From NCBI GenBank assembly GCA_030490835.1, contig CM059972.1, positions 36,683,452-36,747,451 of the forward strand: a stretch of 64,000 bases of DNA, given 5' to 3'. The notes under the pieces are model-generated. The model saw nothing but the letters and a program-made list of their open reading frames with translations. It was not told the DNA's origin and made no database searches. The position numbers and the translations under genes are program-made. The stretch comes from Annona cherimola. Lineage: Eukaryota; Streptophyta; Magnoliopsida; Magnoliales; Annonaceae. Shown here piece after piece: positions 17,495 to 53,172 of this stretch. Position 1 is the stretch's first letter. Every line of letters begins with the position of its first letter.

Positions 17495-18066
17495 TGTGGC
17501 GCCCCAAACCGAGACGTCACTTCCTTACCTCAAGACTTTATTGATTGGTAAATGTGAATCAGGATTGTTGCCCTAACACGCGGCGGGTTCTTAATTGGAA
17601 CTCGTCCAATTTTTTTTCCAATTCATTCCTTTTATCAATCGTCATTCATTTCATTCCACACTACATCTTTCATTATACAAGCACCATTACACCTGTAATA
17701 AAATTTCATAATTCTTTCATAGCATTCATCATGCTTTTCTACAATAACATTTACATTTCGTACATACATCCATACAAGCATTGGATCACATAGAATTTAC
17801 AATTCTACATAAGTTCACATATACATCAACATATCTCAGAACTTTAATCAGGCTATCACATTCCATTCCTTATAGCCCACATGGCTACCATCACATACCT
17901 TTCCTTTATTGCTAAAATTTGCATCGTCTTGAGTTTCCCGGTACCTGTCTATGGTTTGGGAAAACAAAACATGAGTGACAACTCAATAAGTAAGCATTTT
18001 ATGTTTTAAGGGCAAGGCTTCCTTTAAAACCTTTTTCTTAAACATCCTAAACACCTCTTTACTTGA

Positions 18067-18840
18067 GGACATATATGTCCTAAAACATTATCATAAAATC
18101 CTTGTTCATAAGGATAGTTCCATGTCCTTGAACATTCTCATAAAACATCATTCTTAAAATCATTCATAAGCCACATCTGGGCTTGTTAAGGCAAAACATA
18201 TACGTTTTACCTTCTTTAATTAATTTCCTATAATCTTAGATGAACATTTCTAATGTTCAAAGACCTTTACATGAAATCATCTTTCATTAGTGGACATTGT
18301 ACGTCCAAAATATTTTTCTCATAACTCCTTTGGCAAAGGAGGTCATTATCATGTCCTGAAAACATCATACACATAAGCCTTTCTCAGTAAAGGACATTTC
18401 TATGTCTAAAAATATTTTTCATCTTAAACTCCTTTAGCCAAGAGACATTTGATGTTTCAAAGCATTTTTGACATAACTTTTTGACAATGGACATTCATAT
18501 GTCCTAAAACACATTCCATCAAAGTACTTAAGCATTGGACATTCTCATGTCCATAAACATGTACCATTCAATTCTTTTGAAAATGGACATTCTTATGTCC
18601 AAAACCAAGTTTCACATAAATCCTTTTCATAATCTCTGTCTTGGGGCTTGTTTATAGCAAACAAGGCAAATAAAATATATAAACCATTTTCATAAATGCA
18701 TTTTCATAAAAACATTTCCCTTCATTTTTGTTATTTACACTTTTGTGTAAAACACCCTATCTTTAGGGTAACCATCTCATAAAAATTTTTTTAGGATAAC
18801 TTTCATAAAAACATACTTCACGTCCCAATCTTTGGGCTTT
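18067..18840 (-). repeat. Tandem array of short hairpins, G2 3' LTR
   Basis: A run of perfect short inverted repeats at roughly 50-bp spacing, with different stems. Examples: GGACATATATGTCC 18067-18080; ATCCTT..AAGGAT 18098-18115; GAACAT..ATGTTC 18242-18258; CTCCTTT..AAAGGAG 18325-18341; GGACAT..ATGTCC at 18489-18504, 18537-18552 and 18585-18600; CTTGTTT..AAACAAG 18647-18665; TTTACAC..GTGTAAA 18734-18751; ACCCTA..TAGGGT 18754-18769. A-rich linkers such as 'taaaacat' separate them. The array is conserved in the other LTR at 46186-46918. Confidence 0.8.
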
Positions 18841-18956
18841 TCAAAAGAAAAACATAAGAAAATGCATTTCTCTCCATCCAGTAGTGACATTTAGCAAGTG
18901 ATCATTCTACCTTTTGGAAGAGAATCCATACTTAACAGCACGTTATCCAAACGACT

Positions 18957-19070
18957 GTTCTTTCGTCCTGCTCCCATCTCAGGGAGGGCGCCGCTGGCCT
19001 CGTGTCATCCCTTAGCGACTTGGCCATATGTAGAGTGGGCCCCGGCCATCCCGACCATGCTCTAAAACCG
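18957..19070 (-). repeat. GC-rich block conserved among Tekay-like LTRs (G2)
   Basis: The minus-strand reading includes GCCAAGTCGCTAAGGGATG and GGCGCCCTCCCTGAGATGGG, matching the G1 block at 12634-12726 in order and spacing. The other LTR copy is at about 47080-47195. Confidence 0.6.
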
Positions 19071-19107
19071 GCCTATTCCGTGTACTGGTGCACCATACAT
19101 ATTCTGA

Positions 19108-19285
19108 CAGACCGCGGTCGGTTTGGTTTAAAATATCACAGACCGCAGCCCATGACCTTTTAAACTAGGGTCACAAATCGCGGCCTGCAACCATACTCAC
19201 AACACATCATAGATCGAAGCCTATATCTATAAAAATTATTTTCAAAAACACATCACAGACCGTAGTCCATGTCAACTTTTAAAGC
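19108..19285 (-). repeat. CACAGACCGCAG subrepeats, G2 3' LTR
   Basis: Five related units at irregular spacing: GACAGACCGCGGTC, CACAGACCGCAGCC, CACAAATCGCGGCC, CATAGATCGAAGCC and CACAGACCGTAGTC. The cores form short dyads (GACCGCGGTC). The right LTR has the same set at about 47227-47395. Confidence 0.65.
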
Positions 19286-19846
19286 AAGCGTACTCACTTG
19301 AAACAAGTTGTCATTTGAAATTTAGTTTTAGAATGACCTTCCTTAAATTCTTTTAAAACCATTTTGAGTAAAATATTTTGATAAATATTTGAAACGTTTG
19401 AGAAACAATACATCTTAAAAACCCCTATAATAAAATAATTTCAAAACCTTTGGATTTCCAACAATAAACCATATATCTCTCTAATATTTTCTTGGTTTCC
19501 ATTTCGGGGCCTTTTGCTTACATAGTTATGCAATTATACCATCCCCTTCTCCACAACCTAAAAATTTAAATTATTGTCCTCATATCTATTATACTATTTT
19601 TACATAAAGAGGAATTGTACAGTCTTTTGCATGCCATTTAGCAACTTGAAATTAAACCATTTCATGAAATCCCCTATTACGTTGGTCATCCTTAAATCCC
19701 ATTCAACAACATTCATATAAACATTTTTGAAGACATTTTCATCATAGATTTCCTTATCTAAAGGAAATGAAAACCTTTCGAATATCATGTGAAAACGAAT
19801 GGACTATGTCCAAATCATTGTTGATATTTAATTATCATAACATAAC

Positions 19847-21551
19847 TATTGGTCCCGAGTTGATGGCAATTACCCAAGAGGGGAGGGGTGAATTGGGTAT
19901 TTAAAAATTTATAACTTAAACAGAAACTTTACCCCGGATTAATCTAGTCCCCTTAATGAAGAAACGAAATGGAAAGCAATATAATGTAGAGAGCAGAAAT
20001 ATAAATCAAGCACACAAGATTTTTATAGTGGTTCGGGCAACCTCCCTACTCCACTCTTCCAAGCTCACACTCCTTGTGACTTGGGTTCCACTATTCTATT
20101 CTCTCAATAGTGTTAGAGCCACTGCTCTCTTCTAGATTCCAGCTCTAGGGGGCATAAACAACACACTGCACAAGTAGGTGATGAGTCTCACTCCAATCAC
20201 ACACTACTTTGCATACACTTGATCTTAGCTACCCAAGCTAAATCAAGCTTAATACAATTAAACGAAATAACAAAAGAAGTCTACACTTTACAGATGTGTA
20301 GAAGCGATTTGGCGCAGAGAAGAACTTGTAATATAGGCTTTGAAGATTCAGAGATTGAGCTCTAGCATTTTGAAGCAGAGTTCTTCTTCTTTGAATGGCT
20401 TGATCTCTTTGAAGCTCTTGGATATAGGAGTTAAGCACACTTAATGATTCTCAGCTACTTCCCTCGTCCACAATAACTTCCTTCTATAATTGTGGAGGAA
20501 ATCCGAACGTTTGAAGGTGGTTGGCGCGCATTAAATGCGCCAACGTTCGAAAATTATCCGACCGTTGCGACCCAAGTCGCATGCGGAGTCGACTTCGGAT
20601 GCGACTTCGCCCAAGTCGCAGATGGAGTCGACTTCGGGTGCGACTTCGCCTCTCCGTCGCAACTTCAAGTTCCAGGTCGGGTCGACTTGGGTATCGACTT
20701 GACCCAAGTCGCAGGTGAAGTCGACTTCGGGTGCGACTTCACCTTTTCAGGTTCCAAGTCTGAGTCTTGAGTTGACTTTGGCTTCAGACTTTAACTCAAG
20801 TCGATCATGGAGTCGACTTGGGTTGCGACTTGACTTGGTCTTTGCAAAATATGCTTTGATCCTCATTGATTTGCTTCTATCTTGTTTGGCTTTCTTCCTT
20901 TAGTTGCTTTCATTCTAGAATGGATCCTTATACTTGTAGATCTTGTGATTCTTTGAAGAGCTTGACTTTGATTCTTCTTGAATTAGCTTGAACCTTGTGA
21001 ATCTTTGAAGAACTTGAATCTTGCATGGTAGATTCATGCACCTTGCTTGCTTTTGATTCATATTGATCTTCATGACTAGATTATTTCTTCATCTTGGAGC
21101 ATGCTTGAATCTGCATCTTTGATCTTGGAAAAACTCAAGTCGCACTTGGGGTCGACTTCGTCCGCAACTTCGCCCAAGTCGCAACTGGAGTCGACTTCGT
21201 TTGCGACTTCGGTATACTTCTGTCCCAAATTCAACTCTGGACGGTTTTTCCCGACTGAAGTCGATGCTGGAGTCGACTTCGTTTCCGACTTGGCTTCCCA
21301 AGTCGCAAGTGGAGTCGACTTCGCCTGCAACTTCACCTGTTCTTCTCCCATTTTCAACTCTGGACAGTTTTGGCTCTTTGAAGTCGTTCTTGGAGTCGAC
21401 TTGGAGAACTACTTGGCCTTCCATGCTCTCTTTCCTTTAAATGTATATACCTTAAACATTTCCCCAAACATGTTAGTAGCCAAGACATTCTCAAATGGAT
21501 TTGTTAATCATCAAAATATAGTTTTAGCTAGTTTTCCACATATTTCCAACA
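19847..21551 (-). repeat. 3' LTR of element B (1705 bp)
   Basis: On the minus strand it starts TGTTGGAAAT at 21551 and ends CCAATA at 19847. AGTCGACT boxes lie at 20568-20840 and 21134-21410, with ten exact GTCGAC cores. A weak TATA equivalent (ATTATAG) is at 20484-20490. Small ORFs such as 21101-21574 are readings of the box repeats, not genes. Confidence 0.92.
20568..21410 (-). repeat. Two symmetric AGTCGACT box clusters, LTR B (3')
   Basis: Clusters 20568-20840 and 21134-21410 are separated by AT-rich sequence, the same two-cluster plan as in A and C. Arms pair as AAGTCGCA...TGCGACTT around GAGTCGACTTC. Copies in the 5' LTR are at 27527-27799 and 28094-28370. Confidence 0.85.
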
Positions 21552-21827
21552 ATCTCCCCCTTTTTGTTGATTGACAAAATCGATTTGAGTGTATACCTTT
21601 CATTTACTTAAAAACATGATAAGTTTGCATTTGAAGTGTTATCATACATATGCTCATGCAAACTTTCAATAAAAATATTCAACAAACATATCCTACTCTT
21701 CTCCCCAAACATATCCTACTCTTCTCCCCCTCAAATCCTACTCGTCTCCCCCTTTTTGTCAATATATCAAAAAATTAGAGGGTAAAGAGATAGGTGGGTT
21801 TGCTCCCCCTAAACAGGTGCTCCCCCT
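21552..21827 (-). promoter_or_regulatory. Cluster of polypurine tract copies, element B
   Basis: The terminal tract next to the LTR reads CAAAAAGGGGGAGAT on the minus strand (21552-21566). Further copies occur near 21709-21716, 21721-21731, 21744-21758, 21801-21810 and 21819-21827 as complements of GGGGGAG. Repeated polypurine tracts before the 3' LTR are known from Sireviruses. The stretch has no ORF. Confidence 0.8.
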
Positions 21828-21836
21828 AAGTTTATG

Positions 21837-24800
21837 CTAAATTAATTCAATCATTCTCATGTCATTTCTAATCTTATAAAATGCTTCTTTTGCTAGGGGC
21901 TTTGTAAATATGTCTGCAACTTGATCCTCTGTTCTTACATATACCAAACATATGTCATGATTTTCTACATGTTCTCTAATGAAATGGTGTCTAAGGTCTA
22001 TATGTTTGGTCCTAGAATGCAATACTGGATTCTTGGTTAGACATATGGCACTAGTATTATCACATCCGATGGGTATATCTTTAAAATCCATGCCATAGTC
22101 CCTAAGTTGTTGTTTCATCCAAAGTAATTGGGCACAACAGCTCCCGGCGGCAATGTATTCGGCTTCCGCCGTAGATAGAGCAACACTAGTTTGTTTTCTT
22201 GAAAACCATGAAACCAACATGTTCCCAAGAAATTGACATGTTCCACTAATGCTTTTTCTATCTACTTTGTAACCGGCAAAATCCGCATCCGAGTAGCCGA
22301 TTAGATCAAAATTAGAGCCCTTTGGATACCAAAGTCCTATATTGGTAGTGTCAACTAGGTATCTGAAAATTCTTTTCACAGCTACCAAGTGTGATTCTTT
22401 TGGACATGATTGAAATCTAGAGCACATACACACACTAAACAATATATCAGGCCTAGAGGCAGTTAAATACAACAATGAACCTATCATGCTTCTATACAAT
22501 TTTAAATCAACTATTTTTCCTTTTTCATCTTTGTCGATTTTGATTGTTGAGCTCATTGGCGTGTTTGCTCCTTTGCTATTTTCCATGCCAAACTTCTTCA
22601 GCATTTCTTTGATATACTTGGACTGGTTAATGAAGATTCCTTCATTTAATTGCTTGATTTGCAGTCCAAGGAAGAAGTTTAGTTCTCCCATCATGCTCAT
22701 TTCAAATTCTTTCTGCATAAGCTCAGAAAATTCTTGACAAAGAGTTTCATTAGTAGCACCAAAAATGATATCATCAACATAAATTTGAATGATCAAAATG
22801 TCTTTTTCTTTATACTTGATAAACAAAGTGGTGTCTACCTTTCCTTTTTGAAAATCATGATCAATCAGAAATTTGCTTAGTCTATCATACCAAGCCCTTG
22901 GAGCTTGTTTTAATCCATATAATGCTTTGGTTAACTTGTACACAAATTTAGATTGATCTTTCTCCTCAAATCCAGGTGGTTGTTCAACATACACCTCTTC
23001 ATTTATATATCCATTCAAAAATGCACTTTTAACATCCATTTGAAACAATTTAAAGTTCATATGAGATGCAAAAGCTAATAAGATGCGAATTGCTTCCAAT
23101 CTAGCAACCGGGGCATAGGATTCCTCAAAATCTATTCCTTCTTCTTGTGAGTATCCTTTTGCCACAAGTCTAGCTTTGTTTCTCAGTACAAGTCCACTTT
23201 CATCTAATTTGTTCCTAAAGACCCACTTGGTGCCAATAACAGTACAATCGTTTGGTCTAGGAACAAGGTGCCAAACTTGATTTCTTTCAAATTGATTTAG
23301 CTCTTCTTGCATAGCTATAATCCAGTTCTCATCATCAAGAGCTTGATCAATATTAGAAGGTTCAATTTTAGATACAAAGGCGTATTGTCCACAAACATTT
23401 TGTTTTGATCTTCTAGTTTTTACACCTTCATATACATTCCCTATAACTTGTTCAATTGGATGGGCGTGTTTGAATTTCAAATCAGTTGGAGGTTTATAAT
23501 TATTACCTTCACTTACCCTTTCCTCCATTGAATCTTCTTGCTTTTCCACATGCAGTTTTTCAAAATTGCTTGCTACATCATCTGCATCACTTAAATCATC
23601 TTTTCTTTTGTAGCATGAGTTAGTTTCATCAAAAACAACATGTATGGACTCTTCTACAACTTGGTTTCGTTTATTGAATACTCTATATGCTTTGCTATTT
23701 GATGAGTACCCAAGGAATATTGCCTCATCACTTTTAGCATCTAATTTTCCCAAGTTGGTTTTTCCATTGTTCAAAACATAGCATGTGCATCCAAAAGCAT
23801 GAAAATAAAAAATATTCGGTTTCCTTCCTTTCCATAGTTCATATGGGGTCTTTTTCAAGATTGCTCTAATGGTAACTCGATTCAAAACATGACAAGCTGT
23901 ACTCACAGCTTCACCTCAAAATTTCTTGGATAATTTGCTCTCATTTAGCATTGTTCTAGCCATCTCTTGTATAGTTCTGTTTTTCCTTTCAACTGCTCCA
24001 TTTTGTTGTGGAGTTCTTTGTGCAGAAAATGTGTGATGAATTCCTTTTTCATTACATAATTCTATGAATCGTTTGTTTTCAAATTCACCACCATGATCAC
24101 TTCTTATAGTCATAATAGTACTTTGTTTTTCATTTTGCACCAAATTTACAAAAGTTGAAAACATAGGGAAGGCTTCATCTTTGCTAGCTAAGAGAATTAT
24201 CCATGTGAATCTTGAAAAATCATCAACAATAACAAATACAAATTTCTTTCCACCAATGGTTAAAATATCGGATGACCCATATAGATCCATGTGTAGCAAT
24301 TCAAGTGGCCTAGTGGTGGAGATTTCCTTTTTGGTAGAGAAAGGCATTTTAGGTTGTTTAGATAATTGACATGCCTTACAAATTTTGTCTTTGTCATATT
24401 TCAACTTTGGCAAGCCTTCTACCAAACTTTTCTTCCATAGGGTCTTTATATTTCTCATGTTTATATGTCCAAGCCTTTTATGCCAAACCCATGGATCATT
24501 ATCAATGGCCATTAGACATTGACCATCTAGTTCATCAAGTGAAACCAAATATACATTTCCATGTCTTTTTCCACTAAACATGATATGTTCTCCATCAAAT
24601 ACATTACATATAGATGATTCAAACACAACCTTGTATCCTTTATCACATAATTGACTAATACTCATTAGGTTATGCTTGAGTCCTTCAACAAACAAAACAT
24701 CTTCCATGCATGCATTTGAAATGCTATAAATGTTTCCTTTACCTTTAATTTTACCTTTCTCGTTATTACCAAAGGCAACCGTTCCATCGTTGCAAGACTT

Positions 24801-24890
24801 AAGTTTATGAAATAGACTTCTTTCTCCGGTCATATGCCTTGAACAACAGCTGTCCATGAACCATACATTGTTTGCCTTTGCCTTGAACAA
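21837..24890 (-). pseudogene. pol: Pol of element B, one stop
   Basis: One frame of 1018 codons, read from 24890 to 21837, is broken only by TGA at 23916-23918, where Trp is expected before GEA. Domains: protease, where the active-site D-S-G reads D-S-C (codon 24846-24848, GGT to TGT); GAG-pre-integrase WHKRLGH; integrase core with LHMDLYG, IRSDHGGEF and NGAVERKNR, all three acidic residues present; RT with [10 protein letters not shown] and YVDD; RNase H with [23 protein letters not shown] and [15 protein letters not shown]. It ends MRMIELI-stop at 21837. Apart from two point changes it is the best-preserved pol here. The protease change alone should stop processing. Confidence 0.92.
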
Positions 24891-24914
24891 ATCTGAAAAA
24901 TAAAAAGGTAAATC

Positions 24915-26757
24915 TCATCTCTTTGGTACCCATTTTATGGGTCCATTTGGGTTAGTAATATTATTCAATCTTTGTTGCTCTAACTTAGAAAGCCCAAATC
25001 TTGTGTTCCTTGGAACCCAAACTAATTTTGCTCCATGGTCATATAATTTCTTAAAGTTACACTTATAGGCTTTATGACCCATTTTATTGCAGAAATTGCA
25101 AGCCATTGGTAATCTAGGAGTAGGCCTCCAAGTATATTTTGATTCAAATGTTGGCCTTCTAGTCCACATAATATTTTTCCTTCTTGGCTTGTATATCGGT
25201 GCAGTTTTAGTTTGATATTTTTCAAGTATTGGCACATTCGATTTGCCACTTTCTTTTTGCTCAAATGTATGATATCCAAGGCCTTTTTATTTGTTTGAGC
25301 AGTCATGTTCAGAAACATCTTTACATTTTCTCCAGGATTAGAGAATTTGCTAATGATTCATTTAATGATTTGTTCTCCTTTTTCAATTTTTCTATCTCTT
25401 TTATCAATGATTCATTTTCTTCTTTCAGTTTTGTTGATTTTTCAGCTAGTTTTCCATTTTCAATAATAATGAAGTTACATTGTTGTCTCTTCAATGTTAA
25501 CTTGTTTCCTAGCTTTTTGATTTCCTCATATAATGAATCATAAGCTTGTACATTTTGTTGAGAAGAAGAATAATTTGATTGAGAATAGCAAGGTTTGGAA
25601 GTTACCTCTTCATTGCTTGTACATTTTGTTGAGATGGTTTGTTCTTCCAAAACTTCAGTTGTGTTCAAACAAAATAAGTCTTCTTCTTGTTCGATCCGTG
25701 CCATGCAGCATATTCTTACGCAGTTTGCTGCATCGTTATCATCGGTTGAAGAGCTGCTTGTTGATGAAGTCTCTTCATTAACATACATGCCTCTTCCCTT
25801 TGGCCTTTGGTATTTTCTGCCTTCATGTCCTTCCTTCCTCTCTTGATACTCTTTTGATTTTTCTTCCGGCGTAGGACATTGAGCTTGTATGTGTCCTATC
25901 CCGCCGCATTTGTAGTACTTCGTTGGCTCCTTCTTCTTCTCTCTCCGTGTTCTTTCTTTGAAGTCCTTGAAGTTCCTTTCTTTTCTCATAAATTTTTGGA
26001 ATTTGCGAGTGAGAAGTGCAATATCTTCATTATCATTATGAGACGAGGAGGTAGACTCTTCTGAGTTGTGTGCCGCTTTTAACGCAATGATTTTCTTCCC
26101 TTTGTGATTGTCTTCGTTTATTCTCTTAATTAGCTCATGTGACATTAATGAGCTAATTAGATCTTCTAGCTTTAGTGTATTTAGGTCTTTAGCTTCTTCA
26201 ATTGCCGTAATCTTTGGAGTCCAAGATTCCGGTAGAGCTTTTAGTATCTTCATGACCTGTTCAGATTCAGAAATAGCCCTTCCAAGACCTTTCAATGCGT
26301 TAGTAATTTTAGAAAATCTTGCAAACATCTCAGAAACGTTTTCAGTTTCTAACATTCTAAAGCTTTCCAATTCTCCTATCAAAATATTTCTCCTAGTCCC
26401 TTGGACTTGAGAAGTTCCTTCATAGATAGATGTTAAAGTATCCCATATCTCTTTAGCGGTTAGGCACGAGGATACTCTATCATATTCAGAGGCCGTAAGA
26501 GCACAAAATAAAGAGTTCATAGCCTTAGCATTGCTCTTGACGGTTCTTACTTCCTCTTCGGTCCATTTGGAAGCTCTTTCATCAATTGTCAAAGTTACAC
26601 CGTCTTGGATTGCAATCCAAGAGTCCATATCGGTAGCCACAATGAGTTGCTTCATACGAAGCTTCCAATAACCGAAATTGTTCCCATCAAACAATGGTGG
26701 CCTAGTAAATGATTGGCCCTCTGCAAAAGCGGGAACGGAAGTAGATTGGGATGCCAT
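24915..26757 (-). pseudogene. gag: Gag of element B, frameshifted
   Basis: ATG at 26757 (MASQSTSVPAFAEG). The first frame runs about 478 codons, to 25321, through the capsid region and the first knuckle, which reads YYKCGGIGHIQAQC, so its first Cys is Tyr. A frameshift near 25350 then ends it (SLILEKM). The correct frame is partly recovered downstream, with a second shift near 25280, and includes an intact second knuckle CNFCNKMGHKAYKC, ending IKWVPKR at 24915. Length without lesions would match the 600-codon gag of C. Non-functional. Confidence 0.9.
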
Positions 26758-26792
26758 GATAATAGGATCTCTTTGGTTTATCTCAAAGACCC

Positions 26793-26804
26793 GCTTTGAT
26801 ACCA
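26793..26804 (-). other. Primer-binding site, element B
   Basis: The minus strand reads TGGTATCAAAGC two bases after the 5' LTR; one mismatch to the initiator tRNA-Met complement, as in element A. Confidence 0.85.
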
Positions 26805-26806
26805 CT

Positions 26807-28510
26807 TGTTGGTCCGAGTTGATGGCAATTACCCAAGAGGGGAGGGGTGAATTGGGTATTTAAAAATTTATAACTTAAACAGAAACTTTACCCCGGAATA
26901 ATCTAGTCCCCTTAATGAAGAAACGAAATGGAAAGCAATATAATGTAGAGAGTAGAAATATAAATCAAGCACACAAGATTTTTATAGTGGTTCGGGCAAC
27001 CTCCCTACTCCACTCTTCCAAGCTCACACTCCTTGTGACTTGGGTTCCACTATTGTATTCTCTCAATAGTGTTAGAGCCACTGCTCTCTTCTAGATTTCA
27101 GCTCTAGGGGGCATAAACAACACACTGCACAAGTAGGTGATGAGTCTCACTCCAATAACACACTACTTTGCATACACTTGATCTTAGCTACCCAAGCTAA
27201 ATCAAGCTTAATACAATTAAACGAAATAACAAAAGAAGTCTACACTTTACAGATGTGTAGAAGCGATTTGGCGCAGAGAAGAACTTGTAATATAGGCTTT
27301 GAAGATTCAGAGATTGAGCTCTAGCATTTTGAAGCAGAGTTCTTCTTCTTTGAATGGCTTGATCTCTTTGAAGCTCTTGGATATAGGAGTTAAGCACACT
27401 TAATGATTCTCAGCTACTTCCCTCGTCCACAATAACTCCCTTCTATAATTGTGGAGGGAATCCGAACGTTTGAAGGTGGTTGGCGCGCATTAAATGCGCC
27501 AACGTTCGAAAATTATCCGACCGTTGCGACCCAAGTCGCATGCGGAGATGACTTCGGATGCGACTTCGCCCAAGTCGTAGATGGAGTCGACTTCGGGTGC
27601 GACTTCGCCTCTCCGTCGCAACTTGAAGTTCCAGGTCGGGTCGACTTGGGTATCGACTTGACCCAAGTCGCAGGTGAAGTCGACTTCGGGTGCGACTTCA
27701 CCTTTTCAGGTTCCAAGTCTTAGTCTTGAGTCGACTTTGGCTTCAGACTTTAACTCAAGTCGATCATGGAGTCGACTTGGGTTGCGACTTGACTTGGTCT
27801 TTGCAAAATATGCTTTGATCCTCATTGATTTGCTTCTATCTTGTTTGGCTTTCTTCCTTTAGTTGCTTTCATTCTAGAATGGCTACTTATACTTGTAGAT
27901 CTTGTGATTCTTTGAAGAGCTTGACTTTGATTCTTCTTGAATTAGCTTGAACCTTGTGAATCTTTGAAGAACTTGAATCTTGCATGGTAGATTCATGCAC
28001 CTTGCTTGCTTTTGATTCATATTGATCTTCATGACTTGATTATTTCTTCATCTTGGAGCATGCTTGAATCTGCATCTTTGATCTTGGAAAAACTCAAGTC
28101 GCACTTGGGGTCGACTTCGTCCGCAACTTCGCCCAAGTCGCAACTGGAGTCGACTTCGTTTGCGACTTCGGTATACTTCTGTCCCAAATTCAACTCTGGA
28201 CGGTTTTTCCCGACTGAAGTCGATGCTGGAGTCGACTTCGTTTCCGACTTGGCTTCCCAAGTCGCAAGTGGAGTCGACTTCGCCTGCGACTTCACCTGTT
28301 CTTCTCCCATTTTCAACTCTGGACAGTTTTGGCTCTTTGAAGTCGTTCTTGGAGTCGACTTGGAGAACGACTTGGCCTTCCATGCTCTCTTTTCTTTAAA
28401 TGTATATGCCTTAAACATTTCCCCAAACATGTTAGTAGCCAAGACATTCTCAAATGGATTTGTTAATCATCAAAATATAGTTTTAGCTAGTTTTCCACAT
28501 ATTTCCAACA
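26807..28510 (-). repeat. 5' LTR of element B (1704 bp)
   Basis: TGTTGG...CCAACA ends are intact on this copy. It carries both AGTCGACT box clusters (27527-27799 and 28094-28370). Two substitutions have destroyed one core (GAGATGAC for GAGTCGAC) relative to the 3' LTR. Confidence 0.92.
27443..27450 (-). promoter_or_regulatory. TATA-like element, LTR B
   Basis: AATTATAG on the minus strand, at the same place as TATATAA in A and TATAAAAG in C. It is a weak match, so promoter strength may be lower in B. Confidence 0.45.
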
Positions 28511-28630
28511 ATAACAAAACTAATCTTGTTCATAAATCAAATCTTCTTTTTCTTTCTCTTTTATAACATGATTATTTATCATAAAACATCATAAGAGAAA
28601 TTCAAAACTTATTTACATTTGTTACTTTAT

Positions 28631-28942
28631 GAAAAAGGAAAAAATTCCTTTTTTCTTATAAAATACTTTTGAAACAACATCAGAAAGAACTTGCTTACTT
28701 AAAAGAAAATTCTTAAAACCATCGACATAAAACATAAAATCCTGTGAAATTAACATTATGGAGAACTTGCTTACTCATAAGCAAATTCCTTAATCCTATT
28801 AACATAAAGCATTGCTAATCTATGACAACATTTGTGATAATTATTTTTATCTTAAAAATGTTGCTTGCTTCCCATGAAACAAACCTTGGGGCTTTTCTTT
28901 AAAGCCATCATTTTCCAAAGCTTGTGGCTTTGCATTAAAGCC
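28631..28942 (-). repeat. Hairpin array, second group, G2 3' LTR
   Basis: Further short perfect inverted repeats with A-rich linkers: GAAAAAGGAA..TTCCTTTTTTC 28631-28655; TTGCTTA..TAAGCAA 28767-28784; GGCTTT..AAAGCC 28890-28906; GGCTTT..AAAGCC 28926-28942. In the uninterrupted LTR this group lies about 1 kb from the first group, within the same predicted second intron. Confidence 0.75.
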
Positions 28943-29057
28943 ATCATTTTCAAAACTTGTGCTTGCCCTTTCGTTAAAACATAATCATAAAAGCATTGAC
29001 ATAATTATCATTTCAACATATAGAGAAAAATCCATAATTTGAAAGGTTCGCATGCTT

Positions 29058-30625
29058 ACTTGAGATCGTTATAATCCTTTTCCTCCATTCTTTTTCTTGC
29101 CTTTGCCTAGATAAATGAAAATAACATTTCATTTATATGCAACACCTCAAATGCTTGCATCCCTTAGGGTTTTCCAACTTACATAAATCGATTTGGATTT
29201 ACATTATACTAGCTTAACCCTTTTGTCTTTCAAGTGGGATGTTCATACATATCAACATAGCCTATACATCACATTATCTATTCATTCCTTTCATTTTTAA
29301 TACCCTTATGTAGGGTAAACGTTTCAACATATTATAAACTTTTATTTAATCCACATATGGGGGTTCCTTACCTCTCATTTATCATTTAACATCCATTCTT
29401 TATATTTTTCACATTGGGTCTCATCTAAGGCACCTATTCATGAGTTAGGGCTACTAATCTAAATTTCAAAATTTTGAGATTTTATAATTTTCTGAAAACA
29501 GCCTTATACTTCCTCATTTTACCATGTTTTCCTTTCATTTTTGCATCTTAGCTACTCATACATGGTCATCCTCCCTTCTTGCCATCCATACTTCCCATAT
29601 TTACTCACTTGAACATGCATATATTATGTGTAATTCAAGTTCATATAAAACAACACTTTGTTTTGACATTTTATCACATTTCCATCCATTTTTTGCATTT
29701 TATCAAATCTTATTTAGTCATTTCTCATCTTTGTCATACATACCCTTTATGTGCTTCCCATTTCTTACACATAGATTATGTGTTTCTTAATATTTTTCAA
29801 AACAACCACTTTGCCTTCTATTTGGCATAATTAATCCACTTAATTAGCACATGATTTAAGTTATTTTCATGGAATCTTAAAGTCTTAATCATAGAGTTTC
29901 AAAAAAGCAACTTTGGCACCCTCCTTTCATGCTTTCAATGTCTAACTTGACACATTGTTCATAACAGATTTTTAATCTATTAATTCCTGCATTTAATCAT
30001 GCTTTTCTCATCCCATATTTAGGGTATTTTCACATATTTAAAACCCATAATTTAGTCGCCTCAAAACAGCAACTTTCCATACCCATTTTGGGTACCCATA
30101 TGGACGTCCATAACATGGTCCCTTAAAAATCAGATTTTCACAAATCTCTTCCATCCAAGGTTGGACGTCCCATATAACCTAGCTTTAGGGTATTTTATCC
30201 TTTAATTCACCCAAATATTAATTGGGTTTAATCCATGCATCATATCCATCTCAAGAGTGAGAATCCAAACCCGTAGACAACTCTAGGTTCCACCCTTCCT
30301 AGGGTCCTTAATCCATACCCAAATCAACGTATGGAAAGCATAAATTCATGAATCATAAGCTAATCATGAAAGATGATTAAAAAAGCAACATAATAAGGGA
30401 ATTTCATAAAATTCCAGCTAGGGTTATTAATCCCAATCATGCTTAACACGTCACTTAGCCTCCTTGAATCCCTTATATTCATTACTTTCATTCAATTCTC
30501 ATTTAATACCCTAATTAAGGGCATCGTAACTCATCATTTAAGGGTTATTATGGTTCAAATTCATGACCCATGAAAGGAGGTCAAAAATTTGGAATTCAAG
30601 AACCCAAAGCTTAACCCATACTTAC
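29058..30625 (-). other. Candidate intron and 47-nt exon, G2 3' LTR
   Basis: On the minus strand a donor-like CAA|GTAAGTATGG begins at 30625. An acceptor-like tract 'tcatttatctag' ends at 29107 before GCAAAGGCAAG. A 47-nt block 29106-29060 follows, then donor-like CAA|GTAAGC at 29059. The other LTR has the same exon length (48556-48510) and a perfect CAG|GTAAGCAAG donor at 48509. A matching acceptor, CCATAGACAG|G, is at 17945. No transcript evidence. Confidence 0.45.
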
Positions 30626-31956
30626 TTGAAAACTAGAATTTCTTGGCTTGGATCATTTCCCACTCGATTTCCTCCCTTTCCTTCCTCTTTTCCTTCTTTT
30701 TTTTTTCTTCTCCTTTCTCCCCTTGCTTGGCCGTGCTTGCTGCTGTCCTTGGGAGAGAATTTTCTCTCTCCACTTTTGCCCAAGATGAACCGTTCACATA
30801 CCCCTCTCCTTTCTTTTGTAATTTGCAATTTGTGGGGCCTACTTTTACACCTCATTTGTAGGGTAATTTATGAGTCCCTTATTCCTTAATAAGTTGGCAA
30901 CATTTCACCCATGAAAAATCATATTTTTACATAACTTTTAATTATCAAAATCTGCCTCAATTAATGCCCATGTTGTTGTCCACTATTCACGTCACTATTC
31001 ACATGGGTTTTTTTGGCATTTTGTGGCTGATATTTTCAGCCCATTTAATCCCTCATTAACTATGATAGAGGTTAGGCTAATTATATGGACATTTTAGGAA
31101 TTTTAAAAAATAAAAAAAATCTGATTTTTGGGTGCTAATCCACCCATCTCTTGCCACACTTGCTATGCTAGTTTGAGCACTTTCTTTAGCTCATTAATTC
31201 CAGCAGCATAGCCAACGAATTTCCACACATATTTAAGCATAAAATAACCTGCATTTCACCTGCATTTGACACCTATTTGGTCCATTAAAAATTACATTTA
31301 GTTCATGCACCTTCTGCCTTAAATGCATGGTACTCTTGGGTGTAAAAGTCAACTGCATACACCTTTTTCTATTCAGGTATTTTCCCAGCATAATTTTCTT
31401 AATCTAATCCTTCTAAAATTTTAATCTCATAATTTTATTCAACCATTTCAAATTTCATCTCAATCCGATTTTTTTAGCTCAAGTTATAGCAATTTGAACT
31501 TAATGGTTGAATTTGAAATATGATCAATTAATTGTCTCACTAATTTCATCAGGGATTTTCAAAATCCAATAATCCCATAAGATCAAACCCATCATCATCT
31601 ATTCCCCTTTCAAATTTCACTTGAATCTGCCTTATAGGCGTTGAGTTATGAATTTTCTATGATTTTCCAACATAATTCAATAATTTCTATTTTAATCTCC
31701 ATTAATTATATCATGGAAATTAAAAAATATATTCGTGCCACATTAGCATGTTCTAATCCTCATTAAGCCCCTCGGGTCATACCGACTCACTTTGGGCTCC
31801 GACAATTAAATTTTTAATCACCGTTTCCAATAGAAACCTTAATTCAAAATGTGGCATAATTCACAAAAATCATTCAAAATCCATTTAATACATATACACA
31901 TCATAATTACATTCCCAATACATATATATGAGTTCTACTTGGGTTCGGGTATCACA

Positions 31957-31975
31957 ATCCTCCCTCCTTTATAAC
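31957..31975 (-). promoter_or_regulatory. Polypurine tract, G2
   Basis: The minus strand reads TTATAAAGGAGGGAGGAT directly before the LTR start TGTGATACCC. The G1 tract before 57019 is similar. This fixes 17495-31956 as the 3' LTR. Confidence 0.85.
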
Positions 31976-33731
31976 AGGTTTCGTCCCAAAACCTATTACA
32001 TTTCAAATGTTGGGGGTAAAGCTCATATAAATTTGCTAACTTATCTTCTTCCTCCAATATTTCAACGGTTCACTATGCTTCCACTGCGCTACTCTGTCCT
32101 AGTGGCATTTTTGGCCTTGGTCCAATAGACCTATCACTTGTCTCTACTATTTCCTGTTTCCTGTTCCCATATGGACATCTCACTGAAATTGTTCATTTCT
32201 TTATGCCATTCATTTCTTATTCTTATGGTAGGCATACTATTATTCTTATACATAGAGAAATTATAGAATTTCTCATCTTATCATAGGGTAAGATCTAGGC
32301 TACCCATTCATTCATAAAAATCTATAACAATCATTTTTACATATCATCAATATAACATAATACATTCATTTTATAATATAAAGCAAAAGTTGCTCTCATA
32401 TAGAGTTTCATATATGAAATTTCATACATGTCTTAGCAAAAAATACTTTTGCTAAGTTATCCATTCTTTCTCCTCTTATAATGTCTACCACTAGATTTTA
32501 CCATCATAGACTATCCATTAGGAATACCGGTACTAAACCAGTCTAAAATATTTTCTTCCTTATCTCCCTTTCCAGTTTTCATAAACTAGTGAGGGTCCTT
32601 ATCATTTTCAATTTTTTTTTCTAATCTCATTTCTTATGAGTATCATAGAGAGATAATTTCTCTCGTACCTATCTTCTGATCACATCAGAATTGAAGAGAA
32701 TTCCAACAATCATTCTTGCCTTCATTTTTTTCATTTATCTACCATTCCTTGCTATGATACACCAACTTCTGTGGCTATGTGTAATCTTCTTTTCCTTCCA
32801 TACATGCTAACTAGGCATAGTTTGCTACATTTTTCTGCATTAAGTTACAGAGACTTCCTATCAACTATAGCTATCGATTGAGTTGATCTTTCTCACTCTT
32901 TTCTTTTCCTACATCAGATTCCTTAATCTTTAAGGTCAAGTTATCCTTGCCCTAATTGTACATGTTCATTATCAACATGTGTTATATGCTGATATCCTGT
33001 TGGAAGATATTTCTTATCATTTCTTCTAGATTACCTTCTTTGATTATGACATAATAGTCATTAGGGTTTCCTATCATTGATAAGCATTGTCAATCAATGT
33101 TTTGACATTACATTTGACTACATGTTCAAACCTTGAACATGTTCTTAGGTTCAGTCATCCACCGCTCAGCTTGAACAAAATCTAATTCACCTGTGAACTT
33201 AGGTGGATGCTCAACTAGAAAGGTGTTGATAACCTCCCTACTTGCTCTTATCATAACTTCATCAATCTTTAAGGATTTTGGTACTAGGTTAAGAGTCATT
33301 ACTTGTACCGGTCCGTCTTTTCGCCTTCTTCTAATTGGTCCTATTGGGCCTTTCATATTTCTATCTCCTTATCATTCATTCTTATATGAAGTAAGGCCTA
33401 CATCGTCCTGTTTCCTTCCTATCTTCTTGTCTAGTCCTATTGGGGAAAATCCAAAGATTTTGAACCATTTCTATCATTTAGGCTACCCAACCTCGGGTGG
33501 CTTATACCACGGCTTCTTTTTATAGCCGTAGTTATCTATTCTTTCTACTTGTGAGGTATTACCTATAGCAATAGTACCTTCAATCCTTTGACTTAGGGTT
33601 TATATTTTTCCGTCGTTAACGAGCTCATGGACTCACTTGTCCTAGTCATTTAGATTTGCTACTGTCTTTTCTTCTTTCCTATGGACTCCTATCGGCAACT
33701 GCCTTTCCCATGTTCAAAACTAAGGTGATAG
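31976..33731 (-). other. G2 internal region, 3' part
   Basis: Apart from the gag scrap at 33126-33356 I see no coding sequence: no protease, RT, RNase H or integrase motif in any frame. It is AT-rich with frequent stops. The piece nearest the LTR reads like the usual end of a gypsy element ('aggttttgggacgaaacc' before the polypurine tract), so pol has been lost between gag and this tail. It is interrupted at 33731 by C. Confidence 0.7.
33126..33356 (-). pseudogene. gag: Gag fragment of G2
   Basis: 76 codons from ATG 33356. The C-terminal half, with FLVEHPPKFTGELDFVQAERWM, matches the G1 gag segment HPPKFAGEPDPLIAEQWI and the start of a gypsy capsid domain. It stops right after MFKV; the continuation shows no further gag. 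The first half has a basic patch (RRRRK). A usual gag is over 300 residues, so this cannot form a capsid alone. It supports G2 being a deleted Tekay-like element. Confidence 0.75.
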
Positions 33732-33858
33732 TGTTGGAAACAATGTTTAAAACAATAAAAATGACCAAATCTTGAGTTTTGATGATTAACAAGAACTAAT
33801 TTTGAGTATATAAAAAGTACTAATATGTTTGCTAAATGTTTAAGGAAAGCAAAGAGGT

Positions 33859-34149
33859 CAAGTCGATCTCCAAGTCGACTTGGACTTCGACTTGGGTGAA
33901 GTCGATCCCAAAGTCGACTCAAATATCGACTTGAGAATGAATCCCAAAAAGCAACAGGTGAAGTCGCAGGTCAAGTCGACTCCACTTGCGACTTGGGAAG
34001 TCAAGTCGCAGACGAAGTCGACTCCAGCATCGACTTGGAGTATCCAGAGCTGAAAAGTGGAAACGAACATAACGAAGTCGCAAACGAAGTCGACTCCAGG
34101 TGCGACTTGGGTGAAGTCGCAGGCCAGGTCGACTCCATCCACGACTTGA
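33859..34149 (+). repeat. Symmetric AGTCGACT box cluster 1 (LTR C)
   Basis: Six exact GTCGAC cores flanked by AAGTCGCA / GCGACTTGG arms. The copy in the 3' LTR is at 43035-43325 and differs at one site (GGTGAAGTC to GATGAAGTC). Confidence 0.88.
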
Positions 34150-34640: not shown

Positions 34641-34721
34641 GAATAACGGTCAAATTTTTGAACGTTGGAGTTCATTTATTGCACGCCAACCACTTCTACA
34701 ACGTTCATATTTTCCTCAATC

Positions 34722-34729
34722 TATAAAAG
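34722..34729 (+). promoter_or_regulatory. TATA box, LTR C
   Basis: TATAAAAG in 'caatctataaaagg', a strong match. Conserved at 43898-43905 in the 3' LTR. Box clusters lie immediately upstream. Confidence 0.85.
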
Positions 34730-42509: not shown

Positions 42510-42511
42510 TT

Positions 42512-44656: not shown

Positions 44657-45596
44657 GATAGGCATGTTGTAGAATGCAACATATAAAAGTATGTCAATAG
44701 CATTTCTTATCATAATATTCATTCATATCACACATAGTCTATATGATCATTTCTAATAATAGAATCATCATACATAGTAAATTTTATAATCTAGAAAGAT
44801 CAATGATCTTTCCTTTTTCATATACACTTAGCACTTGAATAAAATCAAATGCATTCATATTTTCATAACATCAAACATCATACATTAGGAGTAAAAAAAA
44901 ACTCCCCTTTTCCTACCTTTCTCATTTCTATCTTCTCTTTTCATGGCGTAAGGTTACTTTTCCTTACACATACAGATTATGCCTACATAACCTGTCAATT
45001 TAGTATAACTATAAATTCTTAAACTAGCAATTAATTAGAAAGTTGGTACCTTGGTGCCTTCCATATGTCTACTATAGCTCTGCATCTTAGACATATATAT
45101 CATATAGCACCGTCTTGTGCTATCTTATGTAAGATATGGTAAAGCCTTAGATATGGGGGGTCTCTATGTACGGTTCCATTATTCAACCCATCATCTGTTT
45201 TGATTCCCTTCTATCCTTTATCTTTCCTTAAATTCTACTACCCCCTGCTTCATCTCATTGTCCTCATATCATTTTTCCTTCGTATACCATCTACACTATG
45301 AAATATAGCAAACCAGCTATATTTCCTTAAATGGTCATATCATTGCGTATCATTTTTTCTTCATAGACTATCTACACCATGAAATATAGCAAACCAGCTA
45401 TATTTCCTTAAGTAACCATAATCTTGTGTCATAATGACGCACAATATAAGACAATACATATCGTATATGTCTTATAATCTCAATCAATCTCTTTCATCAT
45501 TTTATATTTTTCTTCTATATCTATCTATCAATCCTTGCTGAAATATCATGTTTGTGATATCAAATCTTTTCTTACCACGCCTATTTACCAATCCAT
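44657..45596 (-). other. G2 internal region, 5' part (leader)
   Basis: Starts with the GATAG duplication. On the minus strand it is the untranslated leader between the primer site and the gag scrap. No ORF or domain is seen. It contains a tandem duplication at 45265-45420. AT-rich. Confidence 0.7.
45265..45420 (-). repeat. 81-bp tandem duplication in G2 leader
   Basis: The unit with 'gaaatatagcaaaccagc' is present twice, offset by 81 bp (45265 and 45346), with a few differences. Within each unit 'atatagc...gctatat' forms a short inverted repeat. Confidence 0.8.
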
Positions 45597-45608
45597 GCTC
45601 TGATACCA
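45597..45608 (-). other. Primer-binding site, G2
   Basis: The minus strand reads TGGTATCAGAGC followed by ATGGATTGG, the same as in G1 (13211), six bases from the LTR. It identifies 45615-55401 as the 5' LTR and sets the orientation. Confidence 0.9.
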
Positions 45609-45614
45609 ACTTCT

Positions 45615-48600
45615 GTGGCACCCCAAACCGAGATGTCACTTCCTTACCTCAAGATCTTATTGATTGGTAAATGTGAATCAGGATTGTTTCCCTGATCATG
45701 AGGCGGGTTCTTAATTGGAACTCGTCCATTTTTTTTCCAATTCATTCCTTTTATCTATCATTATTGATTTCATTCCACACTACATCTTTCATCATACAAG
45801 CACCATTACACCTGTAATAAAATTTTATAATTCTTTCATAACATTCATCATGCTTTTCTACAATAACATTTACATTTCGTACATACATCCATACAAGCAT
45901 TGGATCACATAGAATTTATAATTCTATATAAGTTCACATATACATAAACATACCTTGGATCTTTAATCAGGCTATCACATTCCATTCCTTATAGCCCACA
46001 TGGCTACCATCACGTACCTTTCCTTTATTGCTTAAATTTGCATCCTCTTGAGTTTCCAGGTTCCAGTCTATGGTTTGGGAAAACAAAACGTGAGTGACAA
46101 CTCAGTAAGCAAGCATTTTATGTTTTAAGGGCAAGGCTTCCTTTAAAACATTTTTCTTAAACATCTTGAATATCTTTTTACTTGAGGACATATATATGTC
46201 CTAAAACATTATCATAAAATCCTTGTTCATAAGGACAGTTCCATGTCCTTGAACAGTCTCATAAAACATCATTCTTAAAATCATTCACAAGCCACGACTG
46301 GGCTTATTAAGGCAAAATATATACGTTTTACCTTCTTTAATTAATTTCCTTTAATCTTAGATAACATTTCTAATGTTCAAAGACCTTTACATAAAATCAT
46401 CTTTCATTAGTGGACGTTTTATGTCCAAAACATTTTCCTCATATCTCCTTTGGCAAAGGAGGACATTATCATGTCCTGAAAACATCATACACATAAGCCT
46501 TTCTCAATAAAGGACATTTCTATGTCCAAAAATATTTTTCGTCTTAAACTCCTTTAGCCAAGAGACATTTGATGTCTCAAAGCATTTTTGACATAACTTT
46601 TTGACAATGGACATTCATATGTCCTAAAACACATTCCATCAAAGTACTTAAGCATTGGACATTCTCATGTTAATAAACATGTACCATTCAAATCCTTTGG
46701 AAATGGACATTCTTATATCCAAAACCAAGTTTCATATAAATCCTTTTCATAATCCCCATCTTGGGGCTTGTTTATAGCAAACAAGGCAAATAAAATACGT
46801 AAACCATTTTCATAAATGCATTTGCATAAAAACATTTCCTTTCATTTCTGTTATTTACACTTTTGTGTAAAACACCCTATGTTTAGGGTAACTATCTCAT
46901 AAAAATCCTTTTAGGATAACTTTCATAAAAACATACTTCACGTCCCAATCTTTGGGCTTTTCAAAAGCAAAACATAAGAAAATGCATTTCTCTCCATCCA
47001 GTAGTGACAATTAGCAAGTGATAATTCTACCTTTTGGAAGAGAATCCATACTTAACAGCACGCTATCCAAGCGGCTGTTCTTTCATCCTGCTCCCATCTC
47101 AGGGAGGGCGCCGTTGGCCTCCTGCCATCCCTTAGCGACTTGGTCATATGTAAAGTGGGTCCCGACCATCCCGATCGTGCTCTACAACCAGCCTATTCCG
47201 TGTACTAGTGCACCATACATATTCTGACAGACCGCAGTCTGTTTGGTTTAAAATATCACAGACCACAGCCCATGACCTTTTAAACCGGGGTCACAAACTG
47301 CAGCCTGCAAGTATACCCACAACACATCATAGATCGAAGTCTATATCATTAAAAATTGTTTTCAAAAATACATCACAGACCGCAGTCTGTGTCAACTGTA
47401 AAGCAAGCGTACTCACTTTAAACAAGTTGTCATTTGAAATTTAGTTTTAGGATGACCTTCCTTAAATTTTTTAAAAATCATTTTGAGTAAAATATTTTGA
47501 TAAATATTTGAAACATTTGAGAAATAATACATCTTAAAAAACCCTATAATAAAAGAATTTCAAAACCTTTGGATTTCCAACAATAAACCATATCTCTCTC
47601 TAATATTTTCTTAGTTTCCATTTCAGGGCCTTTTGCTTACATAGTTATGCAATTATACCATCACCTTCTCCACAACCTAAAAATTTAAATTATTGTCCTC
47701 ATATCTATTATACTATTTTTATATAAAGGAGAATTGCACAGTCTTTTGTATGTCATTTAGCAACTTGAAATTAAATCATTTCATGAAATCCCCTATTACA
47801 TTGGTCATCCTTAAATCCCATTCAACAAATTCATATAAACATTTTTGAAGACATATTCATCATAGATTTCCTTATCTAAAGAAAATAAAAACTTTTCGAA
47901 TATCATGTCAAAACATATGGAATATGTCCAAATCATTGTTGATATTTAGTTATCATAACATAACAAAACTAATCTTTTTCATAAATCAAATCTTCTTTTT
48001 CTTTCTCTTTTATAACAGGATTATTTATCATAAAACATCATAAGAGAAATTCAAAACTTATTTACATTTGTTACTTTGTGAAAAAGGGTAAAATTCCTTT
48101 TTTTCTTATAAAATACTTTTGAAACAACATCAGAAAGAACTTGCTTACTTAAAAGCAAATTCTTAAAACCATGGACATAAAACATAAAATCCTGTGAAAT
48201 TAACATTATGGAGAACTTGCTTACTCATAAGCAAATTCCTCAATCCTATTAACATAAAGCATTGCTAATCCATGACAACATTTGTGATAAAATTTTTTAT
48301 CTTAAAAATGTTGCTTGCTTCCCATGAAGCAAACCTTGAGGCTTTTCCTTAAAGCCATCATTTTCCAAAGCTTGTGGCTTTGTATTAAAGCCGTCATTTT
48401 CAAAACTTGTACTTTCCCATTCGTTAAAACATAATTATAAAAGCATTGACATAATTATCATTTCAACATATAGAGAAAAATCCATAATTTAAAAGGTTCC
48501 CTTGCTTACCTGAGATCGTCATAATCCTTTTCCTCCATTCTTTTCCTTGCCTTTGCCTAGATAAATGAAAATAACATTTCATTTATATGCATCACCTCAA

Positions 48601-49172
48601 ATGCTTGCATTCCTTAGGGTTTTCCAACTTACATAAATCCATTTGGATTTACATTATACTAGCTTAACCCTCTTGTATTTCAAGTGGGATGTTCATACAT
48701 ATCAACATAGCCTATACATCGCATTATCCATTCATTCCTTTCATTTTTAATACCCTTATGTAGGGTAAATGTTTCAACATATTATAAACTTTTATTTAAT
48801 CCACATATGGGGGTTCCTTACCTCCCATTTATCAATTAACATCCATTCTTTATATTTTTCACATTGGTGCTCATCTAAGGCACCTATTCATGAGTTACGG
48901 CTACTAATCTAAATTTCAAATTTTTGAGATTTTATAATTTTCTTAAAACAGCCTTATACTTCCTCATTTTACCATGTTTTCCTTTCATTTTTGCATCTTA
49001 GCTACTCATACATGGTCATCCTCCCTTCTTGCCATCCATACTTCCCATATTTACTCACTTGAACATGCATATATTATGTGTAATTCAAGTTCATATAAAA
49101 CAACACTTTGTTTTGGCATTTTATCACATTTCCATACATTTTTTTGCGTTTTATCAAATTTTATTTAGTCAT
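45615..49172 (-). repeat. G2 5' LTR, inner-numbered part (before S1)
   Basis: Pairs with 17495-19846 plus 28516-29726. Holds hairpin arrays at 46186-46918 (for example GGACATATATATGTCC, two bases longer than its partner but still perfectly paired) and about 48085-48395, the GC block about 47080-47195, the CAGACCGC subrepeats about 47227-47395, and the candidate 47-nt exon at 48510-48556. Split by S1 at 49172/49173. Confidence 0.9.
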
Positions 49173-52100: not shown

Positions 52101-53172
52101 AAGCAAGCAAGGTAAGCAAGTAGCTTTCTAAATGATTTTGGTTTTCATTACAAGGTGTTTAAGGATGACCATTCCTTGTCGATATGAGTATTGAAATGTT
52201 TATTTCTGTTGAAATAAATGATTGTTTCTAGTTTCGCAATTATGCTTGAAATGTGATGAAACACGAATTTATACAATGTTTCATTGAAATGGTGTTTAAA
52301 AAGGGATGGTGCAAAGAATTCTCTACACGAGAATGACAAGTTCCATGTGTAAGGGGGTATATGATGCCGGGGTGACTAAAAGTCATGCATGGAATGGAAA
52401 TCAAGTAGGCTAGTCGAGGTAGTAAGTGGACAAGGAGTCCCCCTTGACGTTGCCAAGTCGGAAGGTTCGGCGCCAAGGATGGAAATGATCATGTCATGAA
52501 AGAGGGTTCCCCGTGCTAGCGTACCGTCACATGAAGGATAACGTCATCAATGAAAATGATAAATTTGCACATTCAATATTTATGAAGTGTTTATAAAATG
52601 TGTATGAATGATTTATGAAAAGGTTTTTGCTCCATAGGTAGTTGATCACTTGATAAGTGTCTCTACTGAAGGGAGAAAAATGCTTTTAAATAAATATGCT
52701 TTCAAAATGAATTGCCTGTAAAATATAAGCTTGCTTATTGAGTTTCGACTCACGTTTTCATTTTCCAAACCCATAAACAGGTGAAAGATGAGACCTGGCA
52801 AAGGAGCAGGAGCCATCCATTGAAGAAATGGGAAGACATTATAAGTTTCATGTTAATGAAAAACTTATGTCATATGATTGTAAATACTTTGATGTTTTGT
52901 ATTGACATCTATGATGATACATGCAGTAACATCTGATTTATGAGATCGTTTGAATTATGTTATGAAAATCATGTCTAGTTATGACATTATTGGATGGAAA
53001 TGACTCAGATATGCATGAGACAAAAATAAGGAGGAATTAAACTCCTATGAAATATATTTACTTGGATAAATATCCGTTAAAACCTGTCGTGTGACAGGGC
53101 AACAATCCTGATCACGTTTACCAGTCGAACGATCTTGAGGTAAGGTTGTGACGCTCAGGCTGGGGCGTTACA
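49173..53172 (+). mobile_element. S1: solo LTR, 4000 bp, Tekay-like family
   Basis: TGTGAAACCCC...GGCGTTACA flanked by exact GTCAT duplications (49168-49172, 53173-53177); the uninterrupted site is visible in the other G2 LTR near 29715. No internal sequence, primer site or polypurine tract, so it is the product of LTR-LTR recombination. Its 3' half matches S2 in the GC block, the 'gatggtgcaaagaattctct' segment and the last 90 bp. Plus orientation follows from the terminal 'acaatcctgatcacgtttacc' block shared with G1, G2 and S2. Short ORFs inside are chance. Confidence 0.92.
50688..52780 (+). other. Candidate intron / 44-nt exon / intron in S1
   Basis: A donor-like CCAAG|GTAAAT-type site lies at 50688 (weak). 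An acceptor-like 'cattcttatatgtatag' ends at 52067 before GCAAAGGCAAAG. A 44-nt block 52068-52111 ends in a strong donor CAAG|GTAAGCAAG at 52112, and an acceptor 'ttttccaaacccataaacag' ends at 52780. S2 keeps the first donor (60934, AA|GTAAGTATGG) and first acceptor (62445), but its second donor is decayed. Confidence 0.4.

Follow-up and report, generated by a model that had tools for sequence, protein, structure and literature searches.

The 64-kb window analysed here (64,000 nucleotides of Annona cherimola, contig CM059972.1 of assembly GCA_030490835.1, positions 36,683,452 to 36,747,451) carries a long terminal repeat (LTR) retrotransposon on its minus strand at 17495-55401, which we call G2 and whose two LTRs each contain a string of small palindromes. 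In the region designated zone A (18066..18836 in LTR1 and 46185..46956 in LTR2, both on the minus strand, the latter at a distance of about 570-1345 bp from the LTR's sense 3' end), these palindromes form, with very little doubt, a degenerate tandem array whose units repeat every 48-50 bp or so, within the LTR of an abundant, apparently Ty3-type family, and there is good evidence that the two arms of the palindrome stay matched between units. The array unit is a palindrome with arms of 6-7 bp and a loop of 2-5 bases, and its cores, which resemble GGACAT-loop-ATGTCC, start in LTR1 at 18067, 18112, 18242, 18292, 18341, 18392, 18443, 18489, 18537 and 18585, giving successive spacings of 45, 130, 50, 49, 51, 51, 46, 48 and 48 bp.

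When units were recognised by a likeness of at least 9/12 to GGACAT..ATGTCC, ten cores were found in each of the window's two LTR copies of the array (W1 and W2) and ten in D59, the array of a related LTR family (in L059) that is about 80% identical to G2 in the rest of the LTR, against 1.3 in shuffles of W1 and 1.1 in shuffles of D59. The D59 cores are spaced at 48-54 bp without a gap, and autocorrelation peaked at 48-50 bp in both arrays (z 8.0 at 48 bp in D59, z 4.3 in W1). A sequence-only reading of this DNA had proposed hairpins at about 50-bp spacing, all of different sequence apart from a GGACAT group, so that the pattern and not the sequence would be repeated. Such a spacing applies to the GGACAT units (45-51 bp apart, save for a single gap of 130) but not to all hairpins, and the second proposal is only partly true because what is repeated is largely sequence, through tandem duplication: ten zone A stems are units of one tandem repeat and the zone B palindromes described below recur. 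The other zone A palindromes of LTR1 start at 18168, 18193, 18325, 18647, 18734, 18754 and 18824, and all of these except 18193 are not obviously of the GGACAT unit.

Hairpin density was assessed by counting stems of at least 6 bp against dinucleotide shuffles, both across the window (30 shuffles per 800-bp window, loops up to 8) and within the zones (100 shuffles, loops up to 12). The two hairpin-densest stretches of the whole window are 18001-18800, with 11 stems against 1.7 shuffled (z 8.0), and 46001-46800, with 9 against 1.3 (z 8.2), in agreement with the proposed excess over shuffled sequence. The zone scan counted 11 stems in 18067-18900 against 3.0 (standard deviation [sd] 1.5, shuffle maximum 7) and 11 against 2.9 in 46186-46918, confirming that the same string is kept in the other LTR, and the folding energy of zone A lies well below that of its shuffles (z -6.1 sense and -5.4 antisense, 20 shuffles each). 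A palindrome said to differ in length between the LTRs also exists (16 bp at 18066-18081, 18 bp at 46185-46202), the difference being a 2-bp AT indel in the loop that leaves the stem unaffected.

Zone B, also on the minus strand (28632..28943 in LTR1, 48081..48395 in LTR2), is weaker when taken alone, with 5 stems in 28631-28942, where shuffles average 1.9 (z 2.5) and reach 5 in the best of 100, and a folding z of -2.1; the LTR2 window that contains its counterpart, 48001-48800, holds 10 stems against 2.2. The LTR1 copy consists of AAAAAGGAA..TTCCTTTTT, one intact TTGCTT..AAGCAA and two GGCTTT..AAAGCC palindromes, the last of which sits in a 36-bp tandem repeat (28880-28961), and the LTR2 copy has three TTGCTT..AAGCAA-type stems, at 48141, 48217 and 48315, together with GGCTTT..AAAGCC. 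The earlier figure of about 20 hairpins depends on the cut-off, the LTR1 zones giving 11 + 5 at 6 bp or more and additional ones at 5 bp, and its single stretch 18067-28942 is in fact interrupted by a nested element at 19849-28512.

Evidence on the arms comes from comparing array units with one another, using the commonest state per unit in 20 units from G2 (50 copies) and D59 (40 rows, 39 of them distinct) and leaving out an eleventh G2 core that lies outside the array (4/7 paired). The copies were the best 40 matches per search out of 3744-4008 first-look candidates, not a random sample, and a second search added 11 new ones. Difference between units reached 0.485 and 0.512 in the flanks and 0.444 in the loops, and only 0.106 and 0.089 in the arms. 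The inner six arm positions were paired at 119/120, compared with 108.8 (sd 1.6) under column permutations, which leave kinship among units in place and never reached that value in 10000 trials; the outer pair matched in 14/20 units against 7.6 permuted (10/10000 as high), and in the single copies W1 and D59 120/140 positions pair against 108.1 (sd 2.6; 0/5000). Six of the seven departures from GGACAT were matched on the other arm and one was unmatched, so that between array units the arms do change together, and such matched variants favour base-pairing or arm-to-arm copying over independent half-sites.

Matched palindromes in units that have otherwise drifted suggest that pairing itself may matter to the element. 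That pairing of the arms is a selected property of the array is a reading we hold tentatively, as a substantial possibility that falls somewhat short of an even one. Under it, the arms would be kept because they pair, yielding a string of small hairpins in the transcript or single-stranded complementary DNA (cDNA) of the element; unequal tandem duplication would let the array grow and turn over, while its hairpins could offer a repeated structural landing site, for instance for Gag, packaging, dimerisation or RNA handling. A more specific version, in which the array is a hairpin-string minisatellite whose within-unit pairing is selected and whose multivalent row of hairpins in LTR RNA or cDNA is read by the element's own machinery (e.g., for Gag capture by a non-autonomous element), is rather doubtful.

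Variation among family copies was used as a further measure of constraint, counting as shared a variant present in three or more copies; shared variants would for the most part predate the insertions, and singletons would mostly postdate them. As controls, stem masks were shifted in position and stems were also detected under sham, non-complementary pairing rules. In the stems of G2 zone A, shared variants numbered 0.120 per site, compared with 0.205 (sd 0.021) when the mask was shifted (0/784 as low), while singletons were near ordinary (0.412 vs 0.424). Stems in 46966-48800 were likewise depleted (0.203 vs 0.278, sd 0.030; 7/1774), and with the 11 further copies the zone A values were 0.182 and 0.251 (sd 0.025; 4/923). 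Both the GGACAT stems (18 shared/49 single) and the other zone A stems (8/35) lie below sites that are never in a stem (97/189). When each copy was left out in turn, 10.7 stems per copy were detected compared with 2.6-3.4 under three sham rules, and the shared/single ratio was 0.28 in stems against 0.51 in the rest, lower in 38/39 detectors. The sham rules gave stem/rest ratios of 0.83/0.46, 0.43/0.47 and 0.38/0.48, lower in 4, 22 and 29 of 39 detectors. Downstream of the array, stems detected in G2 also differ less from D59 (0.124 vs 0.175, sd 0.021; 5/1514). Leave-one-out detection, sham rules and shifted masks took the place of an initial stem-versus-linker contrast (p 2e-6) whose stems came from the very copies being compared, in view of detection bias and of the crowding of stems in the query region. 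Single detectors vary in the zone A stem/rest contrast, with p 0.29 for W2, 0.001 for W1, 0.78 for L033 and 0.002 for L055.

Several observations weigh against selection on pairing. The D59 family shows no depletion in its stems (0.153 vs 0.170, sd 0.030, 206/698; 129/698 for 5-bp stems), one sham rule falls below the real rule there (0.106, 35/698; 0.102, 4/698 for 5-bp stems), and for stems detected in D59 conservation towards G2 is not significant (0.144, 182/1514). Because depletion is absent and a sham rule is lower in D59, constraint on stems is supported in one family only, G2, and not in its sister, and the evidence for selection is mixed. Even in zone A the sham rules were not silent, as the 29/39 detectors of one of them show beside the 38/39 of the real rule, and stem detection in the same copies pushes shared variants down somewhat. 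Within families, double changes were fewer than under permutation (9 vs 16.4, sd 3.4, and 5 vs 10.5, sd 3.0), and among the copies (40 rows, one duplicate) 707 cells had a single change, compared with 38 that had a double Watson-Crick change, of 15 kinds in all. Compensatory change among family copies, whose absence the sequence-only reading had named as grounds for rejecting its proposal, is therefore not in excess at that level, which is the expectation for copies that decay once inserted. The six matched departures represent fewer independent events, four being the same A-to-G change and three of these lying in neighbouring D59 units. Recognition of units by likeness to GGACAT flatters arm conservation, though not arm matching, and the arm sequence itself is conserved, not pairing alone, which protein binding would fit too. 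Finally, no preference for G-U pairs in the sense RNA was seen over both families (shared/singleton 37/54 sense and 35/46 antisense, p 0.76). Pairing could therefore act at the level of RNA or of DNA. Selection on the sense RNA by way of G-U tolerance gave no signal either in 39 copies or pooled over both families, and an early by-base hint in 30 copies (stem C 5 shared/33 single, stem G 12/26) later failed.

Conservation of the arm sequence, with the commonest base at 0.8-1.0 of 20 units per arm position, and the absence of RNA-strand asymmetry are what would be seen if the palindromes were cis-regulatory sites acting as DNA, with a dimeric protein binding clustered dyads in the putative promoter region of the LTR and hairpin potential as a by-product. 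The nearest described arrays have dyad symmetry and are shown upstream of the TATA box (PMC2829016), and the cis-regulatory regions of several transposable element (TE) families are described as arrays of sometimes palindromic repeats (PMC10760457). A dimer, however, does not need the same variant in both half-sites, yet 6/7 departures are matched, and the depletion of shared variants extends to G2 stems of other sequence. We regard this alternative as possible though on the whole unlikely.

Matched arms could also be of mutational origin, without any selection on pairing, if a palindromic unit was tandem-duplicated and template switching or hairpin-guided repair copied one arm onto the other. 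Template switching is described as capable of making perfect stems in a single event and of helping to maintain them (PMC8794818), and both the lack of stem constraint in the D59 family and the lack of excess point-change compensation within families would fit. Arm-to-arm copying alone does not explain, however, why the arms keep their sequence while the flanks reach about 50% difference, nor why G2 stems are low in shared variants but not in singletons, and we consider this origin improbable. The idea that the string is a source of host small RNAs or a silencing target, processed into small RNAs, is very improbable: although small RNAs are drawn to clusters of palindromes in the LTRs of maize Sireviruses (Bousios 2016, cited by PMC10760457), the stems here are only 5-10 bp long and, with the microRNA (miRNA)-like cut-off of a 110-nt window below -40 kcal/mol (as in PMC10760457), not one of 143 zone A windows on either strand of either LTR nor of 59 zone B windows passed, the zone A minimum being about -30 kcal/mol, whereas the nested copia LTR 19849-21553, the only copia LTR scanned, did so in 59/319 windows on the plus and 36/319 on the minus strand. 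Small-RNA production from miRNA-like hairpins in zone A, one of the functions first suggested, was rejected on these folding energies.

Comparable arrays are already in print, and the earlier statement that no equivalent had been described was wrong. LTRs of Sireviruses (Ty1/copia elements such as OPIE-2, PREM-2, Osr9 and others) contain palindromic repeated motifs (RM) at 8-32 copies per element (PMC2829016, Table 3), which gather in the LTR and, in certain elements, ahead of the env gene as well, and which the same source presents as Sirevirus-specific and as having a proposed cis-regulatory role. These motifs are the nearest described kind, of which the zone A array is a variant in an apparently Ty3-type LTR. 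Shared features are short palindromes with a short spacer, dyad symmetry and clustering in the LTR, as PMC2829016 describes them, and the ten units each of W1, W2 and D59 lie above the eight or more clustered copies taken as characteristic; the Osr9 motif also shares a GGAC..GTCC-like core with the G2 arms. Unlike the motifs listed there, all of which except Tnd-1 have CGG-CCG, the G2 arms are GGACAT/ATGTCC and variants, with no CGG; in contrast to motifs 66-100% alike within an element, the G2 units are degenerate, in a 48-bp tandem with loops of 2-5 bases; and G2, apparently Ty3-type by the proxy of its gag remnant, would fall outside the Sireviruses. In maize, hairpin peaks occur in the LTRs of copia elements and Ty3 elements generally lack an obvious peak (PMC10760457), and LTR palindrome clusters are small-RNA hot spots (Bousios 2016, cited therein). 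Like these clusters, zone A is rich in hairpins and sits in the LTR of an abundant plant retrotransposon, but its folding is far weaker, at the minimum given above. In outline, it also resembles the tandem or clustered palindromic repeats in the cis-regulatory arrays of other TE families (PMC10760457). A literature search, largely outside subscription journals, found no equivalent structural palindrome array described for a Ty3 LTR.

Assignment of G2 rests on its overall structure. The element has TGTG..CACA LTR ends and an ATAGT target-site duplication (TSD) on both sides (17490-17494 and 55402-55406), and its LTR is about 5.8 kb long. LTR1, the 3' LTR, runs on the minus strand from its sense 3' end at 17495 to 19848 and resumes at 28513..31956, up to the sense 5' end TGTGAT at 31956; LTR2, the 5' LTR, comprises a sense 3' part at 45614..49173 (-), with zones A and B uninterrupted, and a sense 5' part at 53172..55401 (-), past an insert at 49174-53171. 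The primer-binding site (PBS) TGGTATCAGAGCATGG (45593..45608, minus strand), which we take to be initiator-Met-like, lies 5 bases after the LTR, a position that fixes the orientation, and a polypurine tract (PPT), AAAGGAGGGAGGAT, adjoins the 3' LTR (31957..31970, minus strand). G2 therefore has everything expected of an LTR retrotransposon, with TG..CA LTRs, a 5-bp TSD, PBS and PPT. The LTRs differ by a Kimura two-parameter distance (K2P) of 0.048; the parts 17496-19846 and 45615-47964 are 6.2% different, and the other two LTR parts 3.4-3.8%. The family is abundant, with at least 3744 candidate places in the 792-Mb genome at a first look.

The G2 interior that is left after removing a nested element measures about 2.7 kb and has no pol; its longest minus-strand frame (33126..33368, 80 aa) is presumably, by likeness, a gag remnant, and a Pfam search with it returned no match. 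It is 45% identical over 49 aa to frame 14689-14835, which by position falls in the neighbouring element G1, whose frame 16374-17219 has Ty3-type RVT_1 and RT_RNaseH_2 domains. By this proxy G2, which lacks pol, is apparently Ty3-type, and its family is apparently non-autonomous. Large retrotransposon derivatives (LARDs) are non-autonomous and combine long LTRs with a structured, non-coding interior; this copy of G2 would fit that description by its LTR length and by an interior with a gag remnant only, but differs in that the structure of interest lies in the LTR and not in the interior. The LTR copies of G1 have no hairpin string comparable to that of G2 (z 1.7 and 1.3). The region after the PBS of a retroelement leader is a frequent place of packaging or dimerisation signals, and the untranslated leader of G2 has two identical 26-base hairpins with 10-bp stems and GAAATATAGC arms, 81 bp from each other (45300-45325 and 45381-45406) and about 190-290 nt past the PBS. 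Two perfect 10-bp stems in the interior, at 32432-32456 and 33120-33142, lie close to the gag-like remnant.

The element that splits LTR1, outside the studied feature, is of Ty1/copia type (RVT_2; 19849..28512, minus strand) with its own 1.7-kb LTRs at 19849-21553 and 26809-28512. A second, related copia-type element at 33732-44656, in which integrase domains were found, sits in the G2 interior, and a 511-codon open frame (40621-42153, plus strand) downstream of its pol region may represent an env-like gene of the sort that some Sireviruses have. The four copia-type LTRs (19849-21553, 26809-28512, 33732-35480 and 42908-44656) contain tandem repeats with GTCGAC palindromes, and these nested elements may be Sirevirus-like. 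The insert 49174-53171 that splits LTR2 is related to 59704-63643, both partly matching the 5' region of the G2 LTR in inverted orientation. Neither stretch has a hairpin string like that of G2; in the insert, hairpin density is mostly z < 2, with the exception of 49201-50000 (z 4.1).

For the biology of these elements, the presence of such an array in an abundant, apparently Ty3-type family, when the motifs are described in PMC2829016 as specific to Sireviruses, suggests that palindrome arrays arise repeatedly in plant LTRs. Because the flanks of its units differ by about half while the arms stay matched, the G2 array is in addition a natural experiment for separating pairing from binding by a dimeric protein.

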